Shown here in pieces: positions 22,295 through 40,250 of a stretch of 64,000 bases of DNA (the first letter of the stretch is position 1; every line of letters starts with the position of its first letter). A model generated the notes under the pieces. The model saw only the letters and a program-made list of their open reading frames with translations, was not told the DNA's origin and searched no databases. This DNA is from an uncultured Eubacterium sp. (GTDB lineage: Bacteria > Bacillota > Clostridia > Lachnospirales > CAG-274). A program made the translations under genes and the position numbers. The stretch lies in contig URXK01000001.1 of assembly GCA_900551755.1 (NCBI GenBank), positions 310,001-374,000 on the forward strand. The letters are read 5' to 3'.

Positions 22295-24433
22295 ATGAGT
22301 AAGATTTACAAAATGGACTTAGCTGGTAGAGAGCTTTCAGTTGAAATTGGTAAAGTTGCTGAATTAGCTAATGGTGAGTGTATTGTAAGATACGGTGACA
22401 CTGTTGTTTTAGTTACTGCTACTGCATCTGAAAAGCCAAGAGCTGGCATTGACTTTTTCCCATTATCAATTGATTATGAGGAAAAAATGTATGCTGTAGG
22501 TAAAATCCCTGGCGGTTTTACAAGAAGAGAAGGTAGACCAGCTGAACACGCTATTTTAACAGCTAGAGTTATTGATAGACCAATTAGACCTTTATTCCCT
22601 AAGGATTATAGAAATGATGTTTCTATTAATGCTATGGTTATGGCTGTTGACCAGGATTGTGCACCTGAAATTTGTGCTATGATTGGTTCTTCAATTGCAC
22701 TTTCAATTTCTGACATTCCTTTCTACGGTCCTACAGGTTCTGTATCTGTTGGTATGGTTGATGGCGAATATATTATTAACCCAACAGCTGAGCAGAAGGC
22801 AAAGAGCAGAATGAACCTTACAGTTGCATCAACTAAGGAAAAGGTTATGATGATTGAAGCAGGTGCTGATGAAGTAACTGATGACGAAATGTATGATGCA
22901 ATTATGTTTGGTCACGCTCAGAATATTGAAATCTGTAAGTTTATTGACGGTATTGTTGCAGAGTGTGGCAAAGAAAAGCATAGCTATGAAGAACACGTTG
23001 TTGACCACGACTTATATGATGCTATTAAGGAATTAATTGGCGATAAGAGAATGGAAGAAGCTGTTTTCACTGATATGAAGCAGGTTAGAGATGAAAGAAT
23101 TTCTGAAATCGAAGCTGAGTGTTGTGAAAAGCTTTTTGAGCAGTTTGGTAATGATGACGAGGTTGAATTTGAGGCTGTAATTGGCGAGGCTATTTACAAG
23201 TACGAAAAGGAAACTGTAAGAAGAATGATTTTAAGAGAGCATAAGAGACCAGACGGTAGAAAGCTTGACGAAATTAGACCATTATCTGCTGAGGTCGATG
23301 TACTTCCTAGAGTTCACGGTTCAGGCTTATTTAAGAGAGGTCAGACTCAGGTATTAACTGTTACAACTCTTGGTTCAATGTCTGATGTACAGAAGTTAGA
23401 CGGTCTTGATGAGGCTGAAACAACTAAGAGATATATTCACCACTATAACTTCCCAGGTTTCTCTGTTGGCGAAGCTAAGCCTTCAAGAAGTCCTGGTAGA
23501 AGAGAAATTGGTCACGGTGCTTTAGCAGAAAGAGCTTTATTACCAGTTATTCCTAGTGAGGACGAGTTCCCTTATGCTATCAGACTTGTATCTGAAGTAT
23601 TAAGTTCAAACGGTTCAACATCTCAGGGTAGTGTTTGTGGTTCTACACTTTCACTTATGGCTGCTGGTGTTCCTATTAAGAGACCTGTTGCTGGTATTTC
23701 TTGTGGTCTTGTTACTGGTGAAACTGATGATGACTTTATTCTTTTAACAGATATTCAGGGTCTTGAGGACTTCTTTGGTGATATGGACTTTAAGGTAGCT
23801 GGTACTCACGAAGGTATTACAGCTATTCAGATGGATATGAAGATTCAGGGTCTTACTCCAGAAATCATTAAGGGTGCTATTGCAAATACTCACAAGGCTA
23901 GAAATTATATCCTTGATGAAGTTATGCTTAAGGCTATTGCTGAACCTAGAAAGGAATTATCTGAATTTGCTCCTAAGATTGAGTTTGTTCAGATTAACCC
24001 AGATAAGATGGCTGAGGTTATTGGTTCTAAGGGTAAGGTAATTAATAGAATTATTGAAGAATCTGGTGTAGATAAGATTGATACTGAGGACGAAGGCAAG
24101 ATTTATGTAGCATCTGCTAATGCTGCTGCAATAAAGAAGGCTGTTGATATGATTAAGCTCATTGATGAAGGTCCTAAGCCTGGTAAAGTTTATACAGGTA
24201 CAGTAACAAGAATTATGAATTTCGGTGCATTTGTTGAAATTGCTCCAGAAAAGGAAGGTCTTGTACACATTTCTAAGTTAGCTCACGAAAGAGTAGCTAA
24301 TGTTGAAGATGTTGTAAATGTTGGTGATGTTATCGAAGTTAAGGTAATTGAAATTGACCAGCAGGGTAGAATTAATCTTTCAAGAAAAGATTGTCTTCCA
24401 AAGCCAGAAAAAAAGGCAAAAGTTGAAGAATAA
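22295..24433 (+). CDS. pnp: Polyribonucleotide nucleotidyltransferase (PNPase)
   Basis: PNPase degrades RNA 3' to 5' by phosphorolysis as a trimer. The 712-residue protein has the first RNase PH core (GDTVVLVTAT, GGFTRREGRPAEHAIL), a linker helix domain, the second core with the active site (HHYNFPGFSVGEAKPSRSP, then GVPIKRPVAGISCGL, DIQGLEDFFGDMDFKVAGT), a KH domain (MAEVIGSKGKVINRIIEESG) and a C-terminal S1 domain (GTVTRIMNFGAFVEIAPEKEG). Length is typical. RBS AAGGAGG. It follows rpsO as in most bacteria. Confidence 0.98.
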   Translation: MSKIYKMDLAGRELSVEIGKVAELANGECIVRYGDTVVLVTATASEKPRAGIDFFPLSIDYEEKMYAVGKIPGGFTRREGRPAEHAILTARVIDRPIRPLFPKDYRNDVSINAMVMAVDQDCAPEICAMIGSSIALSISDIPFYGPTGSVSVGMVDGEYIINPTAEQKAKSRMNLTVASTKEKVMMIEAGADEVTDDEMYDAIMFGHAQNIEICKFIDGIVAECGKEKHSYEEHVVDHDLYDAIKELIGDKRMEEAVFTDMKQVRDERISEIEAECCEKLFEQFGNDDEVEFEAVIGEAIYKYEKETVRRMILREHKRPDGRKLDEIRPLSAEVDVLPRVHGSGLFKRGQTQVLTVTTLGSMSDVQKLDGLDEAETTKRYIHHYNFPGFSVGEAKPSRSPGRREIGHGALAERALLPVIPSEDEFPYAIRLVSEVLSSNGSTSQGSVCGSTLSLMAAGVPIKRPVAGISCGLVTGETDDDFILLTDIQGLEDFFGDMDFKVAGTHEGITAIQMDMKIQGLTPEIIKGAIANTHKARNYILDEVMLKAIAEPRKELSEFAPKIEFVQINPDKMAEVIGSKGKVINRIIEESGVDKIDTEDEGKIYVASANAAAIKKAVDMIKLIDEGPKPGKVYTGTVTRIMNFGAFVEIAPEKEGLVHISKLAHERVANVEDVVNVGDVIEVKVIEIDQQGRINLSRKDCLPKPEKKAKVEE

Positions 24434-24450
24434 TTAAAAATATAAAAAAT

Positions 24451-24488
24451 AAAACTGTTTGAATTTTCAGACAGTTTTATTTTTTTTG
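24451..24488 (+). terminator. Terminator of pnp
   Basis: AAAACTGT (24451-24458) pairs with ACAGTTTT (24471-24478), extended inward to about 12 pairs, followed by ATTTTTTTT. It isolates the CRISPR locus from the translation operon. Confidence 0.9.
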
Positions 24489-24506
24489 TCTAAAATAGTA
24501 TATAAA

Positions 24507-24535
24507 TTGACATTATATTAACTATATGATATACT
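24507..24535 (+). promoter_or_regulatory. Promoter of the cas9-cas1-cas2-csn2 operon
   Basis: TTGACA (24507-24512), 17 bases, TATACT (24530-24535): almost perfect consensus. Transcription would start near 24542 and cross the whole tracrRNA gene in the opposite sense before reaching cas9. A weaker second candidate for cas9, TTGTAG (24639-24644), 17 bases, TATTAT (24662-24667), overlaps the tracrRNA promoter. Confidence 0.7.
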
Positions 24536-24544
24536 TTTATTAAA

Positions 24545-24659
24545 TAAAAAAAGCCTTAAAAAAGGCTTTTAAGCACAACACTTGTGCGAACGGAAAACCG
24601 AACGATTAGAAATAATTTTTATTTGAACTCGTAATGTTTTGTAGGTAGTAATATCTACA
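24545..24659 (-). ncRNA. tracrRNA of the type II-A system
   Basis: On the minus strand 24621-24652 is the anti-repeat. Against the CRISPR repeat it gives a lower stem (repeat TTTGA), a bulge of GA opposite GAGT, then an upper stem of eight pairs (GTAATGTT), and further pairing past a three-base repeat bulge. The 2-versus-4 bulge is the layout of Streptococcus pyogenes tracrRNA. Downstream come an AT-only hairpin (AAATAA/TTATTT), CGG-TTTT-CCG, GCACAA-GTG-TTGTGC, and a terminator AAGCCTT/AAGGCTT with seven T (plus 24546-24568). The 5' end is set from the promoter -10 box. Processing with crRNA by RNase III and loading into Cas9 follow from the family. Confidence 0.9.
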
Positions 24660-24665
24660 TATATT

Positions 24666-24694
24666 ATTATATTATAAAAAAGGGCAGGTGTCAA
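24666..24694 (-). promoter_or_regulatory. Promoter of tracrRNA
   Basis: On the minus strand TTGACA (24689-24694) and TATAAT (24666-24671) are both perfect and 17 bases apart. The -35 box ends one base before the cas9 start codon and the -10 region lies in the cas9 leader. Confidence 0.85.
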
Positions 24695-24695
24695 T

Positions 24696-27600
24696 ATGGA
24701 ATATTATGTTGGATTAGATATAGGTACAAATTCTGTTGGATGGGCAGTAACAGATTTGTTATACAATGTTTTAAAATTTAAAGGCAATGCTATGTGGGGA
24801 GTATATCTATTTGATGAGGCTAAGCAAGCTAATGATTGTAGAACATTTAGAAGTAACAGAAGGCGTTCTGACAGACGCAAGCAAAGAATTACAATATTAC
24901 AGGAATTGTTTGCACCTATAATAAATCGTGTAGATAAAGATTTTTATTTGAGATTATATGAAAGTAGGTTATATAGAGAGGATAAAAGCATAGATGAAGT
25001 TTATAATTTATTTAATGATAATAATTATACTGATATGGATTACCATAAGCAATATCCGACTATACATCATTTAATATGTGATTTAATGAAAGGTGAAAAA
25101 CAATTTGATGTAAGGCTTGTTTATTTAGCTTGTGCTTATATATTAAAACATAGAGGACATTTTCTTATTGAAGTGGATAAGGATAATATATCAGAGGTAA
25201 AGGATATTGAATATGTTTATGAAAAATTAATGGGGTGGTTCTATTCATTTGAATATAATACTCCTTTTGAATGTTCAGCACAGGATTTTGGCAGAATTTT
25301 AAAATGCAATAAAGGAATAAAGGCAAGAGAAAAGGCATTTAAGGATTTACTATTTGGTGGTAAAAAGCCTGATGATAGTGAATATCCTATTGATAGATTG
25401 GTTATGCTTAAACTTATATCAGGAGGAAAGGGTAAGCTTTCAGCTTTATTTAAAAATGAGAATTATGATGGAATTGATAATAATGAAATAGCTTTGAACA
25501 CAGGAGATTTTGACGAAAAGTTAAGTAGTTTAGCATCAGAGTTGAACGATGGAGATTTAGAGCTTATAGTTGCAATGAAAGGAATATATGATTGGTCATT
25601 ACTTTCAGATATTTTACAAGGCAAGGATAGTATATCAGAAGCAAAGATTGCTATTTACGAAACTCATAAAAAGGATTTAAAGCTATTAAAGTATATTATA
25701 AGTAAGTATAAACATAATGAATATAATAATGTTTTTAGGTCAATAAATGGTAAAATCAATAATTATACTAAATATTCTGGCAATGTTAAATCATCAGTTG
25801 AATATGATTATAGTGGATTTACAAAGGAAAGAGATAGAGATAACTTTTGTAAATATATTAAGAGTATAATAAAAGACATTGTACCTGGTGAGGAAGATAA
25901 GGAGAAATTTGAACTATTATTAACAAGGGTAGAAAATGGTGAGCTTTGTCCTAAACAGGTAAATACAGATAATAGAGTTATTCCTTATCAGCTTTACTAT
26001 ACTGAGCTTAAACAAATATTAAATAATGCAAGAAAGTACATACCAGAATTAAATAAAGAAGATGAATACGGTAGTGTTGTTGATAAAATATTGTCTATAA
26101 TGACATTTAAAATACCATATTATGTAGGACCTTTGGTGGATAATAGTAGGAGTAAATTTGCTTGGCTAGTTAGAAAGGCTGAGGGAAGAATATTACCGTG
26201 GAATTTTGATGATATGGTAGATAAGGATAAATGCGAAGATGAATTTATAAGAAGGATGACTTGTCAATGCACTTATTTAGCTGGTGAGGATGTTTTACCT
26301 AAGTATTCATTATTATATAGCAAATTTGTTGTTCTTAATGAAATAAATAACATAAAAATTAACGGTGAGAAAATTACTGTTTCTGTTAAGCAAGAAGTAT
26401 TTAATAATGTGTTTAAAAAGTATAAAAAGGTTAAAAGAAAGCATATAGAGAATTATCTTATTTCAAATGGGTATATGACAGCAGATGATAAACTGGAGGG
26501 AATTGATATACAAATTAATTCTTCTCTAAAGAGTTATCACGATTTTAGAAAATTAATTACAGATGGTGTTTTGACTGAATATGATGTAGAACATATTATT
26601 GAGAGAATTACATTTACTACAGATAAGGCTAGGTTAAAATTATGGCTTGAAAAAAATTACAATCTTAATAAAGATGACATTAAGTATGTTGCAGGATTAA
26701 ATTACAAGGATTTTGGTAGACTTTCAGGTAAATTTTTGACTGAAATATTAGATGTTGATGTAAATACTGGAGAGATACTTAGACCTAGCATTATCAATAT
26801 GTTATGGGAAACTAACAATAACTTAATGGAACTTTTGTCAGGTAATTATGGATATATGGATAAAATTAACAGTATTAATTCAGAATATTATTCAAATAAT
26901 CCTAAAACTGTTGGAAGTATGCTTGATGATATGTATATTTCAAACGCTGTTAAACGACCTATATTTAGAACATTAGATATAGTTAAAGAAATTTTGCATA
27001 TCAAGAATGAACCTCCTAAAAAGATATTCATAGAAATGGCAAGAGACAAGTCTACTGATAATAAAGGTAAGCGAACAAAATCAAGAAAGGATAGAATAAG
27101 AGAATACCTTAATAGCTTTGAAGATGGTGAGATTGGAGATATTAAGAGGCTATTGAAAGAGCTTGAATCTAAAAGTGACGACGAACTAAGAGGGGATAAA
27201 CTTTATCTTTATTTTATGCAGTTAGGTAGATGTATGTACTCAGGTACAGATATTGATATAAATAAACTTTCATCAAAGAGTTATGATATTGACCATATAT
27301 TTCCACAATGCAAGGTTAAAGATGATAGTATAGATAATAGAGTTCTTGTTTTATCTGAGCTTAATGGAAATAAGGGAGATGTTTATCCTATAGATAAATC
27401 AATACGAAATAAAATGCACAATCTATGGGAAGTCTTACATTCTAAGGGTATGATTAGTGATAAGAAATATTCAAGACTTATTAGAGATAGAAAATTCACA
27501 GATAATGAGCTTGCTGAATTTATAAACAGACAACTTGTTGAAACAAGACAATCAACAAAAGCTATTGCTTCTATATTAAAAGAGATGATGCCTGAAACAG

Positions 27601-28805
27601 AGATTGTTTATGTTAAAGCAGGGCTTGCTTCAGAATTTAGACACGATTTTGAAATGCTTAAATGCAGAGAGATAAATGACTATCATCACGCAAAAGACGC
27701 ATATCTTAATGTAGTGATGGGAAATGTTTATAATGTTAAGTTTACAAAAAATCCTTATAATTATATTAAAGAACTGAAAACGAAAGATGCTTATTCTATG
27801 AAACTTACATCACTTTTAAAGCATAATATATCAAGAAATGATGAAGTTGCTTGGTTGGGCGATGGAAAAACCTTGGCTCTTGTTAAAAAATATATGAATA
27901 AAAACAACATAAGATATGTAAGGTATTGTTATAGTAGAAAGGGTGAATTTTTTAATCAAAATGCAGAAAGGGCTTCAGCAGGGCTTGCTAGGATTAAAAA
28001 GGATTTGCCTACTGAAAAGTATGGAGGATATAATTCTACAAGTGCAACTTGCTTTGTTGTTTTAAAGTATATTACAGAAAAAAATAAAGGAATTGTTTTA
28101 ATGCCTTTAGAGTTAATGTATGCAAATAAATTTAAAACTGATGCTATTTTTGCCACAGATTATGCAAAAAGAATGTTGAATGATATAGTGTCATTAAAGA
28201 AAGGCGAATTTATTAAGCAAATAGAATTTCCATTAGGTAGAAGATTAATAAAAATCAATACTCTTATAGATATAGATGGTTTTAGAGTAAATATTTTACA
28301 AAAATCAAATAAAGGAAAAACTGTTGTTTTGGGATTAGGCTTATCATTAATAGTTGATAAGGAAAGTTACGATTATATCAAAAAAGTTTTTTCTGTTTAT
28401 AACAAATTAAAGTCAGGTACTATATCAAAAATATCTGAAGAAACTGAAAAAATAAATTCGGTTGAAAATTTAAAAATATATGATTTGATAACATTGAAGT
28501 TAAAAAATAAAATATATAGTGTTATGTTTTCAAAAATTGCAACTAAATTAGATAAAGGAAGAGAAACTTTCTGTAATCTTAGTCTTGATAAACAGACAGA
28601 AGTATTAGCAAATGTAATTAGTATTTTAAAATCTGGTAGGTCAATGGGATGTGACCTTAGACTTATTGGAGATGTAAAATCAGCAGCTGTTATTACCATT
28701 AATTCTGAATTGACAAAAATCAAAAATGTTAGTTCAATACGAATTATAGACCAGTCACCAACAGGGTTGTATGAAAAAATATCAGCCAATTTATTAGAGC
28801 TATGA
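24696..28805 (+). CDS. cas9: CRISPR-associated endonuclease Cas9, type II-A
   Basis: The 1369-residue RNA-guided nuclease cuts both strands of target DNA. RuvC-I is VGLDIGTNSVGWAV with catalytic Asp 8; the Arg-rich bridge helix follows (48-70, FRSNRRRSDRRKQR); RuvC-II is PPKKIFIEMARD with Glu 780; the HNH domain has YDIDHIFPQ with His 867; RuvC-III is YHHAKDAYLN with His 998 and Asp 1001. All catalytic residues are present. The C-terminal domain ends DQSPTGLYEKI, matching the QSITGLYE end of S. pyogenes Cas9, but the preceding strand lacks the Arg-x-Arg that reads NGG. The gene overlaps cas1 by four bases. A weak AGGTG serves as ribosome site. Confidence 0.98.
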   Translation: MEYYVGLDIGTNSVGWAVTDLLYNVLKFKGNAMWGVYLFDEAKQANDCRTFRSNRRRSDRRKQRITILQELFAPIINRVDKDFYLRLYESRLYREDKSIDEVYNLFNDNNYTDMDYHKQYPTIHHLICDLMKGEKQFDVRLVYLACAYILKHRGHFLIEVDKDNISEVKDIEYVYEKLMGWFYSFEYNTPFECSAQDFGRILKCNKGIKAREKAFKDLLFGGKKPDDSEYPIDRLVMLKLISGGKGKLSALFKNENYDGIDNNEIALNTGDFDEKLSSLASELNDGDLELIVAMKGIYDWSLLSDILQGKDSISEAKIAIYETHKKDLKLLKYIISKYKHNEYNNVFRSINGKINNYTKYSGNVKSSVEYDYSGFTKERDRDNFCKYIKSIIKDIVPGEEDKEKFELLLTRVENGELCPKQVNTDNRVIPYQLYYTELKQILNNARKYIPELNKEDEYGSVVDKILSIMTFKIPYYVGPLVDNSRSKFAWLVRKAEGRILPWNFDDMVDKDKCEDEFIRRMTCQCTYLAGEDVLPKYSLLYSKFVVLNEINNIKINGEKITVSVKQEVFNNVFKKYKKVKRKHIENYLISNGYMTADDKLEGIDIQINSSLKSYHDFRKLITDGVLTEYDVEHIIERITFTTDKARLKLWLEKNYNLNKDDIKYVAGLNYKDFGRLSGKFLTEILDVDVNTGEILRPSIINMLWETNNNLMELLSGNYGYMDKINSINSEYYSNNPKTVGSMLDDMYISNAVKRPIFRTLDIVKEILHIKNEPPKKIFIEMARDKSTDNKGKRTKSRKDRIREYLNSFEDGEIGDIKRLLKELESKSDDELRGDKLYLYFMQLGRCMYSGTDIDINKLSSKSYDIDHIFPQCKVKDDSIDNRVLVLSELNGNKGDVYPIDKSIRNKMHNLWEVLHSKGMISDKKYSRLIRDRKFTDNELAEFINRQLVETRQSTKAIASILKEMMPETEIVYVKAGLASEFRHDFEMLKCREINDYHHAKDAYLNVVMGNVYNVKFTKNPYNYIKELKTKDAYSMKLTSLLKHNISRNDEVAWLGDGKTLALVKKYMNKNNIRYVRYCYSRKGEFFNQNAERASAGLARIKKDLPTEKYGGYNSTSATCFVVLKYITEKNKGIVLMPLELMYANKFKTDAIFATDYAKRMLNDIVSLKKGEFIKQIEFPLGRRLIKINTLIDIDGFRVNILQKSNKGKTVVLGLGLSLIVDKESYDYIKKVFSVYNKLKSGTISKISEETEKINSVENLKIYDLITLKLKNKIYSVMFSKIATKLDKGRETFCNLSLDKQTEVLANVISILKSGRSMGCDLRLIGDVKSAAVITINSELTKIKNVSSIRIIDQSPTGLYEKISANLLEL

Positions 28806-29680
28806 GTTGGAGAACGGTTGTTATAAGTCATAGATGTAAGCTTGATTTTAAAATGGGAAATATGGTGGTTCGTTCAGATAAGATATGTAGAATACGCTTG
28901 GACGAAGTATCGGTAATTATAATAGAGGATACAGCTGTATCAATAACTGCATATTTGTTGAATGAAATATCAAAGAGAAAAATCAAGCTTATATTTTGTG
29001 ACGAATCAAGAAATCCTGCTTTTGAGTTAGTACCTCTATATGGCTCACACGATTGCTCGGCTCGTCTTAAAGCTCAACTACAATGGCGTAATGATATAAA
29101 AGTTGAAGTGTGGACTAGTATTGTGGCTGAAAAAATATCAAAGCAATCGGAGATGCTTTTAAAAATATCAAAAAACGAAGAAGCAAATATGTTGCAACAG
29201 TATATATCTGAATTAGAGCTTAATGACAGTACCAATAGAGAAGGACATAGTGCAAAGGTTTATTTTAATGCACTTTTTGGAAAAGATTTTTCACGAACAC
29301 AAGATATAGGAATAAATGCAGCATTAAACTATGGCTATAGTATTTTACTTAGTATAGTAAATAGAGAAATTGTTGCAAATGGTTACACTACTAAATTAGG
29401 GCTATTTCATAGTAATATGTTTAATTTTTTTAATTTTAGTTGTGATTTAATGGAACCGTTTAGAGTTGTTGTTGACCGTGTAGTATATGAGATGAAAGTT
29501 GGAATATTTGAAAAAGAAGAAAAACATCTTTTAATAACAAATTTATTGAATTATACATTAAATATAGATGGCAGGGAAGAGTATTTTCCTAATGCTATTA
29601 AGGTGTATTGTAAAGCAGTGTTGAAGGTGCTTAATAGCAATGATATTTCAAATATCAGATTTTATGAGTTTTTAGATTAA
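28802..29680 (+). CDS. cas1: CRISPR adaptation integrase Cas1
   Basis: Cas1, with Cas2, inserts new spacers at the leader end of the array. The 292-residue protein has the active-site residues Glu 147 (NREGHSAKVYF), His 203 (KLGLFHSNMFNF) and Glu 218 (CDLMEPFR). The N-terminal beta domain starts SWRTVVISHRCKLDFKMGNM, as in type II Cas1 proteins. It starts within the last codons of cas9 (ATGA overlap), so translation is coupled. Cas2 follows after seven bases. Confidence 0.97.
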   Translation: MSWRTVVISHRCKLDFKMGNMVVRSDKICRIRLDEVSVIIIEDTAVSITAYLLNEISKRKIKLIFCDESRNPAFELVPLYGSHDCSARLKAQLQWRNDIKVEVWTSIVAEKISKQSEMLLKISKNEEANMLQQYISELELNDSTNREGHSAKVYFNALFGKDFSRTQDIGINAALNYGYSILLSIVNREIVANGYTTKLGLFHSNMFNFFNFSCDLMEPFRVVVDRVVYEMKVGIFEKEEKHLLITNLLNYTLNIDGREEYFPNAIKVYCKAVLKVLNSNDISNIRFYEFLD

Positions 29681-29687
29681 AGGTATA

Positions 29688-30008
29688 ATGAGTTATAGGT
29701 TTATGAGAATTATTGTATTTTTTGACTTACCTACCATTGAGGAGGGAGATTTAAAGGAATATAGAAAATTTAGAAAACTACTATTGAATAAGGGCTTTAT
29801 TATGATGCAAGAATCAGTTTATACAAGAATGGCATTAAATAGAACCACAGCAGATTATGTATTATCTAATCTAAGAAAAAATAAGCCTCCTAAAGGGTTG
29901 GTTCAAATTTTGGTAGTGACAGAAAAGCAATTTCAAAGGATGGAGTTTTTAACTGGTGAGTTTGAAAGTGATATGATTGATAATGATGAAAGGATTATAT
30001 TTTTATGA
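29688..30008 (+). CDS. cas2: CRISPR adaptation protein Cas2
   Basis: The 106-residue protein forms the dimer that bridges two Cas1 dimers. MRIIVFFDLPTIEEGD contains the conserved first strand with Asp, followed by YRKFRKLLLNKGFIMMQESVY, as in type II-A Cas2. Its stop overlaps the csn2 start by four bases. The ribosome site (AAAGG) is weak. Confidence 0.96.
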   Translation: MSYRFMRIIVFFDLPTIEEGDLKEYRKFRKLLLNKGFIMMQESVYTRMALNRTTADYVLSNLRKNKPPKGLVQILVVTEKQFQRMEFLTGEFESDMIDNDERIIFL

Positions 30009-30673
30009 AGCTTGTGAAACAGGAATTTATGAAACCGTTACAAATTGAAAATGACAAAATTAATTTTTTGTGCATAGAAAATAAACAAGCGTTTTATGGT
30101 TTTATAAGTGATTTGTATGATTTAAGCACAGGTAAACAGAATGATATAATTTTATCTGATAATGACTCTCCAGTTAAATTTTCAAATTATGCTGATTTAT
30201 TAATGAATTTTATTCCCTTTGAATTAAATAATAAGAAGTTATTAACTAAGCTGTATGATAAATTATCCAAAGAGGCTGTTGATGCTAATATGTTGTCTGA
30301 AACACATAGCTTTGAAATTGTTTTTCAAAGCTATGTGCTAAAACTGTGCGAACAATTTGATTTTGAGCTTGAGTTTGATAATGATTTTGATGTTAAGGGA
30401 TTATTAAAAGCTATTAATTTAAGATTTTTGGATGAATATTCAACTCTTAGTGAAAAAATATTTGAATATATGATAAATATGAGGGAACTGTGTGGAATAA
30501 AAGTATTTATTTTTGTTGGAGTGTGTTCTTTGATTTCTGATGAAGAATTCAATCTATTTATTGACACTGTGATTAACCATAGAATTCCATTGCTTATTAT
30601 TGAAAATATTGATTGTTTATATGGAACTAAAATAAATAAAAGGGTTATAGATGAAGATTTTTGTGAGATATGA
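30005..30673 (+). CDS. csn2: Csn2, type II-A spacer acquisition protein
   Basis: Csn2 is a ring-shaped tetramer that holds free DNA ends and is required for spacer uptake in type II-A systems. The 222-residue chain matches the short Csn2 form: it starts MKLVKQEFMKPLQIENDKIN, has a central helical arm, and shows the KVFIFVGVCSLISDEEFNLF and RIPLLIIENID strands. No catalytic residues are expected. Its presence fixes the subtype as II-A. The array promoter begins right at its stop codon. Confidence 0.92.
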   Translation: MKLVKQEFMKPLQIENDKINFLCIENKQAFYGFISDLYDLSTGKQNDIILSDNDSPVKFSNYADLLMNFIPFELNNKKLLTKLYDKLSKEAVDANMLSETHSFEIVFQSYVLKLCEQFDFELEFDNDFDVKGLLKAINLRFLDEYSTLSEKIFEYMINMRELCGIKVFIFVGVCSLISDEEFNLFIDTVINHRIPLLIIENIDCLYGTKINKRVIDEDFCEI

Positions 30674-30753: not shown

Positions 30754-31644
30754 GTTTGAGAGTAATGTTATTTTGTAGTGTAGTAAAACTTCGCTTTAAG
30801 CATAGTAACCCATAGTCATGTTTGAGAGTAATGTTATTTTGTAGTGTAGTAAAACCCTTTTGTCTTAACTTTGTATGTACACTTGTTTGAGAGTAATGTT
30901 ATTTTGTAGTGTAGTAAAACTATATTTTTAATCTTATTTTGAATATTGCGGTTTGAGAGTAATGTTATTTTGTAGTGTAGTAAAACAAATTATCATTTCC
31001 TACACAATTTAAAACTGTTTGAGAGTAATGTTATTTTGTAGTGTAGTAAAACATTGAAGAAAAAAAGGTCGGGCTTAACGAGTTTGAGAGTAATGTTATT
31101 TTGTAGTGTAGTAAAACTCTACGAATCGTTGAACCATGTCGCTATATGTTTGAGAGTAATGTTATTTTGTAGTGTAGTAAAACCTGCATTTTTAACTTTA
31201 AAACAATAATGAGTTTGAGAGTAATGTTATTTTGTAGTGTAGTAAAACCATAGGGAGTTTGTATATTGTGCGTATATTGTTTGAGAGTAATGTTATTTTG
31301 TAGTGTAGTAAAACAACAATCACGCAAGTTGGTATTCCAGTTATGTTTGAGAGTAATGTTATTTTGTAGTGTAGTAAAACAAAAGAAACAAAAGAAATAG
31401 ATTTACAATAGTTTGAGAGTAATGTTATTTTGTAGTGTAGTAAAACAGGGTATGAATGGTGATTTAACAGTAAGTGGTTTGAGAGTAATGTTATTTTGTA
31501 GTGTAGTAAAACAAGTTTTATGTTACAACAATACTCGCTAGGGTTTGAGAGTAATGTTATTTTGTAGTGTAGTAAAACAGATATTATTTCTGACCTTTAA
31601 AAAGCTCCGTTTGAGAGTAATGTTATTTTGTAGTGTAGTAAAAT
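30754..31644 (+). CRISPR. CRISPR array, 14 repeats and 13 spacers
   Basis: The repeat is 36 bases, from GTTTGAGAGTAATG to GTGTAGTAAAAC. Repeats start at 30754, 30820, 30885, 30951, 31017, 31082, 31148, 31213, 31279, 31345, 31411, 31477, 31543 and 31609. The first 13 are identical; the last ends in T in place of C, marking the trailer end. Spacers are 29 or 30 bases (29 for spacers 2, 5 and 7). All spacers are different from one another. Orientation is fixed by promoter, leader anchor, degenerate last repeat and anti-repeat pairing. I found no obvious match of a spacer elsewhere in this window by eye. Confidence 0.99.
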
Positions 31645-40221: not shown

Positions 40222-40250
40222 ATTATAATTCTTAATTATGTTAATGTCAA
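40222..40250 (-). promoter_or_regulatory. Promoter of the HIT gene
   Basis: On the minus strand TTGACA (40245-40250), 17 bases, TATAAT (40222-40227), a perfect consensus. The ten bases TTGACATTAA occur twice, at 40241-40250 and 40257-40266. Confidence 0.8.

Follow-up and report, generated by a model that had tools for sequence, protein, structure and literature searches.

The stretch considered here (the window) comprises 64,000 nucleotides (nt) of contig URXK01000001.1 (positions 310,001 to 374,000, assembly GCA_900551755.1) from an uncultured Eubacterium sp. of the Clostridia. Downstream of pnp it carries a type II-A CRISPR-Cas (clustered regularly interspaced short palindromic repeats and associated proteins) locus with all the expected components, i.e., cas9, cas1, cas2, csn2, a CRISPR array and a predicted trans-activating CRISPR RNA (tracrRNA) (Table 1). 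The gap between pnp and cas9 holds, in this order, an inverted repeat, a plus-strand promoter, the tracrRNA terminator, the tracrRNA body with its anti-repeat, and the tracrRNA promoter. It appears from this layout that cas9 in this gut bacterium is switched on from beyond the tracrRNA gene, and the same is probably true of many relatives. The cas9 mRNA would then probably carry the full antisense of the tracrRNA, a prediction that is well supported.

The central observation is a pair of predicted promoters pointing at each other across the tracrRNA gene, as the first-pass annotation of this DNA had described. The distal one lies at the tracrRNA 3' end and is aimed at cas9 (24507-24535); its -10 element, identified by its match to consensus rather than by activity, ends 13 nt to the left of the terminator stem. 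On the other side, a single base separates the -35 hexamer of the tracrRNA promoter (24689-24694) from the cas9 ATG (24696), again in agreement with the earlier description. A strict pattern (TTGACA-N16-18-TATAMT), which was picked after both sites had been seen, matches three times in 64 kb compared with 0.27 expected matches, a count reached in none of 100 shuffles, and the facing pair accounts for two of the three. The third match, the sole other one in the window, lies at 40222-40250 on the minus strand. A looser promoter scan over 2 kb returned 6 sites, fewer than the 10.0 found in shuffles; thus, weak sites carry no weight in such AT-rich DNA, and the strict pattern and positional statistics were used instead.

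Table 1. Predicted features between pnp and the CRISPR array (window coordinates)
Feature	Position	Strand	Details
pnp	22295-24433	+	upstream of the type II-A CRISPR-Cas locus
AT-rich inverted repeat past pnp, terminator-like by eye	24444-24485	+	20-nt arms, 95% complementary, 2 nt spacing, followed by a T run
Distal cas9 promoter (predicted)	24507-24535	+	TTGACA-17-TATACT, 11/12, TG before -10
tracrRNA (predicted)	24542-24659	-	about 118 nt including T tract; promoter, anti-repeat, hairpins, terminator
cas9 mRNA leader (predicted)	24542-24695	+	start inferred 7 nt past -10; antisense to predicted tracrRNA 24659-24542
tracrRNA terminator stem-loop	24549-24570	-	terminator scan
tracrRNA hairpin	24573-24587	-	GCACAA-loop-TTGTGC; fold
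Anti-repeat	24621-24652	-	matches array repeat; fold
tracrRNA 5'-terminal hairpin	24640-24659	-	TGTAG...CTACA; 3' arm inside anti-repeat
tracrRNA promoter (predicted)	24666-24694	-	TTGACA-17-TATAAT, 12/12
tracrRNA -35 hexamer	24689-24694	-	between cas9 Shine-Dalgarno (about 24680-24688) and ATG at 24696
cas9, type II-A	24696-28805	+	TIGR01865, E 6.8e-261
cas1	28802-29680	+	TIGR03639
cas2	29688-30008	+	TIGR01573
csn2	30005-30673	+	TIGR01866
CRISPR array	30754-31644	+	14 repeats of 36 nt

The tracrRNA gene is well supported by its own elements (promoter, anti-repeat and terminator); at gathering level, Rfam gave zero matches in the window, and none of the seven weak matches around the locus (E up to 10) belongs to a tracrRNA family. 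Because the predicted tracrRNA starts at 24659, 37 nt upstream of the cas9 start, a duplex between the leader and the tracrRNA would not cover the Shine-Dalgarno sequence. With its end near 24659, such a duplex would stay about 20 nt short of the Shine-Dalgarno, and initiation should therefore not be blocked. For the anti-repeat segment, the computed pairing energy is -66.3 kcal/mol with the 46-nt leader copy and -26.3 kcal/mol with the 36-nt repeat, which is not a like-for-like comparison given the different lengths. The "repeat-like copy of the anti-repeat" formerly ascribed to the leader is merely the complement of the anti-repeat, and no extra element is present.

The recurrence of this arrangement was assessed in loci from other genomes. 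Cas9 searches matched 65 genomes in all, some of them counted in more than one search: 4 of the 4 genomes chosen singly, 5 of 48 in the family and 26 of 392 in the order of genome G001 (the host's nearest relative), and, around genome G002, 17 among 297 genomes of its family and 21 among 394 of its order. Fifty-two loci were retrieved, and 13 genomes in which cas9 is truncated or broken, or preceded by little DNA, were initially excluded; L082 was dropped because its upstream region is nearly the same as that of L081, and the statistics refer to 52 loci, window included. As the N-terminal Cas9 identity of the compared loci to the window is about 35-54%, the tracrRNA served as the reference for comparing positions, in place of a base-by-base alignment. 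Conservation is tested only at this level, and closer Cas9 proteins exist at 98, 68 and 67% identity. The start codons of cas9 were assigned as those nearest to the conserved N-terminus. For 11 of 53 rows, in which no terminator was recognised by rule, the anti-repeat served to place it; in 3 of these, the anti-repeat anchor was itself obtained with a second pattern. A distal site was defined by a -10 element within 90 nt to the left of the tracrRNA terminator, with either two hexamers scoring at least 9.5 or an extended -10, and the background for plus-strand sites was obtained from 100 rounds of dinucleotide shuffles.

Throughout this set, the anti-repeat, aligned to the array or to a generic repeat, is on the minus strand and in most loci precedes cas9 by 40-110 bp, L075 (-180) and L122 (-314) being wide exceptions. 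For L087, L096 and L103 there is no upstream repeat match among the three listed, yet the TTATTTG(A/C)AC core is present. Of the 52 loci, 48 carry a tracrRNA promoter that scores 9.5 or higher (3.8 ± 2.1, maximum 11, in 50 shuffles), and 34 have distal plus-strand promoter-like sites (7.4 ± 2.5, maximum 12, in shuffles). In these 34 loci, the 24507 promoter, whose conservation the first-pass annotation had proposed to check, is kept in position, not base by base. Among the relatives, the culturable Ruminococcus flavefaciens (L002/L072) has promoter-like sites of both kinds. Farther upstream, the next 90 nt contain sites in 8 of 52 loci compared with 4.7 in shuffles, and the region from the tracrRNA 3' end to cas9 contains them in just two loci (L075 and L112) compared with 8.2 ± 2.5. 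In a 20-nt position profile, sites rise across the 80 nt to the left of the terminator and drop at the terminator edge. Among loci with a recognisable cas9 promoter, this promoter is nearly always beyond the tracrRNA, and its predicted transcript necessarily includes antisense to the entire tracrRNA. Moreover, 22 of 52 loci have the tracrRNA -35 between the Shine-Dalgarno and the start codon, no more than 7 bases away from the cas9 start. Within the window's own Cas9 clade (17 rows, support 100), the -35 stands between these two elements in 16 rows, and a distal site is present in 12, window included; the sole exception to the former is L075, where the gap measures about 115 bp and holds a promoter-like site. 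Seven of the 13 initially excluded genomes (L015, L021, L025, L026, L027, L029 and L063) have a minus-strand anti-repeat core upstream of cas9; the six with enough upstream DNA include four with a distal site (L015, L021, L025 and L063) and none with an inner site. Upstream DNA was too short in L027 (140 nt), L010 (76 nt), L020 (12 nt) and L041 (119 nt), L048 is without the cas9 N-terminus, and L022 shows no core by pattern and a similar stretch by eye.

These counts bear on the possibility that a weak promoter within the gap between tracrRNA and cas9 starts cas9, giving a short leader without antisense. The window does have a site of this kind, TAGGTA-17-TATTAT, but it is the best inner plus-strand candidate and matches at 8/12 only, so that no second promoter nearer cas9 (comparable to P1cas, discussed below) was found there. 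The near absence of threshold sites from this gap among the 52 loci, the unusual width of the gap in one of the two exceptions (L075), and the lack of inner sites in the six loci checked later all argue against such a start, which appears quite unlikely.

Several observations weigh against transcription of cas9 from beyond the tracrRNA as a general rule. By the criteria given above, 18 of 52 loci are without a distal site, and 10 of these fall in one 13-row clade (L090, L091 and L094-L104; support 100), whose members all come from the search of the G001 order and are presumably Lachnospiraceae-like. A distal site is present in 3 of the 13 loci of this clade compared with 31 of the 39 remaining loci; with no recognisable distal promoter in 10 of 13 rows, cas9 transcription there may differ. 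Two of the six later-checked loci, L026 and L029, also have no distal site, and both belong to the family of G001, i.e., the host's nearest relative. In L033, a tracrRNA-like stretch (anti-repeat, hairpins and T run) seems by eye to lie on the plus strand, co-directional with cas9, which would mean that the arrangement is not universal. Furthermore, the AT-rich terminator-like repeat after pnp speaks weakly against read-through from pnp; since this repeat has fewer G-C pairs or a shorter loop than the terminator scan demands and is not listed by it, such read-through might still reach cas9. Loci without a distal site may likewise use other or farther promoters, or read-through. Regarding the tree, L091 was classed as "far" because its tracrRNA promoter went unrecognised, and L078 (classed as "fused") and L122 (classed as "far") are outside it because their open frames are short. 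GC-rich stretches that look alike and resemble inverted repeats (GGCGGCGGGTTCCAT...) were noticed by eye in two loci, in L079 beyond the tracrRNA 3' end and in L122 in the gap between tracrRNA and cas9; they might be copies of a small mobile repeat by which the control region is rearranged.

The closest known counterpart is found in group B Streptococcus (GBS). In this species, a short RNA of about 100 nt (Srn036) was observed that runs antisense over the 3' end of the tracrRNA, and a modulating effect on tracrRNA was proposed for it (PMC4448216). Its promoter is P2cas, located at the tracrRNA 3' end, and reporter and mutant data of a later report show that it can drive cas9; in CC-17 strains, in which P1cas is deleted, P2cas is necessary and sufficient (PMC12216829). 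Judging by its position, the whole P2cas leader would be antisense to all of the GBS tracrRNA. The window resembles this system in having a promoter at the tracrRNA 3' end that is directed to cas9. However, GBS normally also has P1cas, with autorepression by a long tracrRNA form (tracr-L); in the window, no good promoter was found apart from the distal one, and only one base lies between the tracrRNA -35 and the cas9 start codon. P2cas is, moreover, under the control of CovR, and the available part of the same report describes no effect of tracrRNA on P2cas (PMC12216829), which is a further point against a regulatory role of the antisense leader. The GBS precedent might also suggest that the 24507 promoter yields only a short RNA antisense to tracrRNA, with cas9 started elsewhere. 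Nonetheless, the promoter of Srn036 later proved to drive cas, no plus-strand terminator-like site is listed in the leader of the window (by a scan that also misses AT-rich stems), and hardly any locus has a promoter-like site from which cas9 could otherwise start between the tracrRNA 3' end and the gene; this explanation is therefore unlikely. The arrangement is thus a recurrent Clostridia variant of the GBS P2cas kind, and the idea is not wholly new. No description of it in Clostridia was found in the titles and abstract openings of the literature searched, a coverage outside which most subscription papers lie. Of four plasmid controls, only the type II-A locus of Listeria monocytogenes (L124) was usable (L123 is a vector without the native tracrRNA region, and L125 and L126 have no clear nearby anti-repeat). 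As in the window, this one genome has a minus-strand anti-repeat upstream of cas9 (63-88 bp) and a plus-strand site farther out, the only one listed with a score of at least 9.5 in 900 bp upstream, with its -10 ending 273 bp before cas9. Unlike in the window, no tracrRNA promoter at the threshold of at least 9.5 is listed beside the anti-repeat.

Streptococcus pyogenes offers a different comparison. Its tracrRNA also lies upstream of cas9 on the opposite strand, and the window shares the type II-A class with it. Repression of Pcas in S. pyogenes is exerted by tracr-L, a long form of the tracrRNA that carries an 11-nt match (PMC11417352, PMC8616872); PMC6431027 was consulted for transcription starts near the tracrRNA of this species. 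One might suppose that the window, too, has a long tracrRNA serving as a natural single guide, and that Cas9 represses its own promoter. The self-pairing of the tracrRNA 5' end with the anti-repeat might be a minimal version of the tracr-L upper stem, and in three of 52 loci (L118, L121 and L122) the match is longer than in all 60 of their own shuffles, where about one such locus is expected. In contrast, the longest match of the tracrRNA 5' side to the distal promoter is near chance over the 52 loci (mean 8.44 vs. 8.22 nt), and on this average tracr-L-like guiding was rejected. In the window itself, the guide-like match to the cas promoter is 9 nt compared with 9.9 nt in shuffles, and no other minus-strand site of at least 9/12, i.e., no second upstream tracrRNA promoter, was found in 24695-25500. 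With neither a long tracrRNA form nor a guide match above chance found, in contrast to S. pyogenes, this explanation is very unlikely. Control of the region 24440-24760 by spacers was likewise rejected: the longest matches of the 13 spacers are 6-9 nt compared with shuffle means of 6.7-9.2 nt (matches taken irrespective of the protospacer-adjacent motif).

The self-pairing of the tracrRNA 5' end is a recurrent property in its own right. In all 39 loci with a full-length anti-repeat, the window and 38 relatives, the distal part of the anti-repeat forms pairs with the predicted 5' end of the same tracrRNA, and the fold has a z value below -2 in 31 of them. The hairpin arms differ in sequence between these loci yet remain complementary: pairing with the own arm averages -6.39 kcal/mol compared with -2.86 kcal/mol when arms are swapped between loci, exceeds the swapped mean in 39 of 39 loci, and is among the best tenth in 21 of 39. 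No comparable hairpin was found in 12 measured tracrRNAs of the 13-row clade, in which the anti-repeat is short (15-19 nt from the predicted start). Counts of G.U and A.C pairs did not separate the tracrRNA from the cas9 leader as the acting strand of the hairpin. The hairpin resembles a guide-less minimal form of the self-pairing of S. pyogenes tracr-L and may protect the 5' end or tune access of the CRISPR RNA (crRNA) repeat.

With regard to origin, the pnp of the window, 93% identical to that of G001, places the host near Candidatus Gallispira edinburgensis, whereas the Cas9 of the window is only 54% identical to that of G001. The pnp and cas9 genes of G001 sit on separate contigs (C49 and C62). 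Together with these contigs, the difference in identity suggests that the CRISPR locus was acquired separately from the pnp background. At the far end of the locus, the terminal CRISPR repeat (31609-31644) is degenerate and ends in AAAAT, not AAAAC.

The facing promoters, the antisense geometry and their recurrence are features of the DNA itself; the regulatory reading that the first-pass annotation built on them is partly supported, the promoters and the conserved distal site standing on firmer ground than the proposed feedback. It is reasonable to propose that the cas9 operon is transcribed mainly from 24507-24535, past the 3' end of the opposed tracrRNA gene, with a start near 24542, and that the strong tracrRNA promoter is wedged against the cas9 start codon; in such an arrangement, the cas9 mRNA would open with the complete tracrRNA antisense. 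RNA polymerases transcribing cas9 and tracrRNA might then collide head-on, and the long duplex between leader and tracrRNA could be exposed to RNase III. Any tracrRNA bound by the leader would be unable to pair with crRNA repeats, so that leader and crRNA repeats would compete for it. Translation of a trimmed cas9 mRNA should remain possible, as the duplex would fall about 20 nt short of the Shine-Dalgarno. The net effect would be that Cas9 is kept low and tied to tracrRNA output, i.e., a damping and coupling of amounts and not a switch. The probability that the operon is expressed mainly from this promoter, with an antisense leader and moderate mutual damping of Cas9 and tracrRNA, is put at roughly one half.

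A serious rival accepts the overlap as real and explains it as a by-product of a compact layout, in which tracrRNA and cas9 travel together and the antisense leader would have no regulatory effect. In L075, the promoter-like site in the wide gap makes the antisense leader look dispensable, and the position of the Shine-Dalgarno outside the predicted duplex also fits this explanation. The near absence of inner promoters over divergent loci and the overlap of the -35 with the start codon region in nearly all rows of the window's clade speak for more than compactness; however, both also fit a compact locus, and neither decides. Overall, compactness without regulation is possible but somewhat doubtful.

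A broader version of mutual damping is more tentative still and rather doubtful at present. It holds that, in a broad group of Clostridia, the cas9 leader is by design the antisense of tracrRNA and serves as a cis-acting controller of the Cas9:tracrRNA ratio that needs no guide, repressor or tracr-L, and that the tracrRNA -35, the spacing of the cas9 ribosome site and both start sites are locked together. The amount of Cas9 is a trade-off between immunity and self-damage, to which the answer of S. pyogenes is a natural single guide. If cas9 and tracrRNA are indeed hard-wired in Clostridia as two convergent, overlapping genes, this would represent a second solution that needs no guide match, and it would be relevant to expressing these Cas9 proteins from their native leaders.
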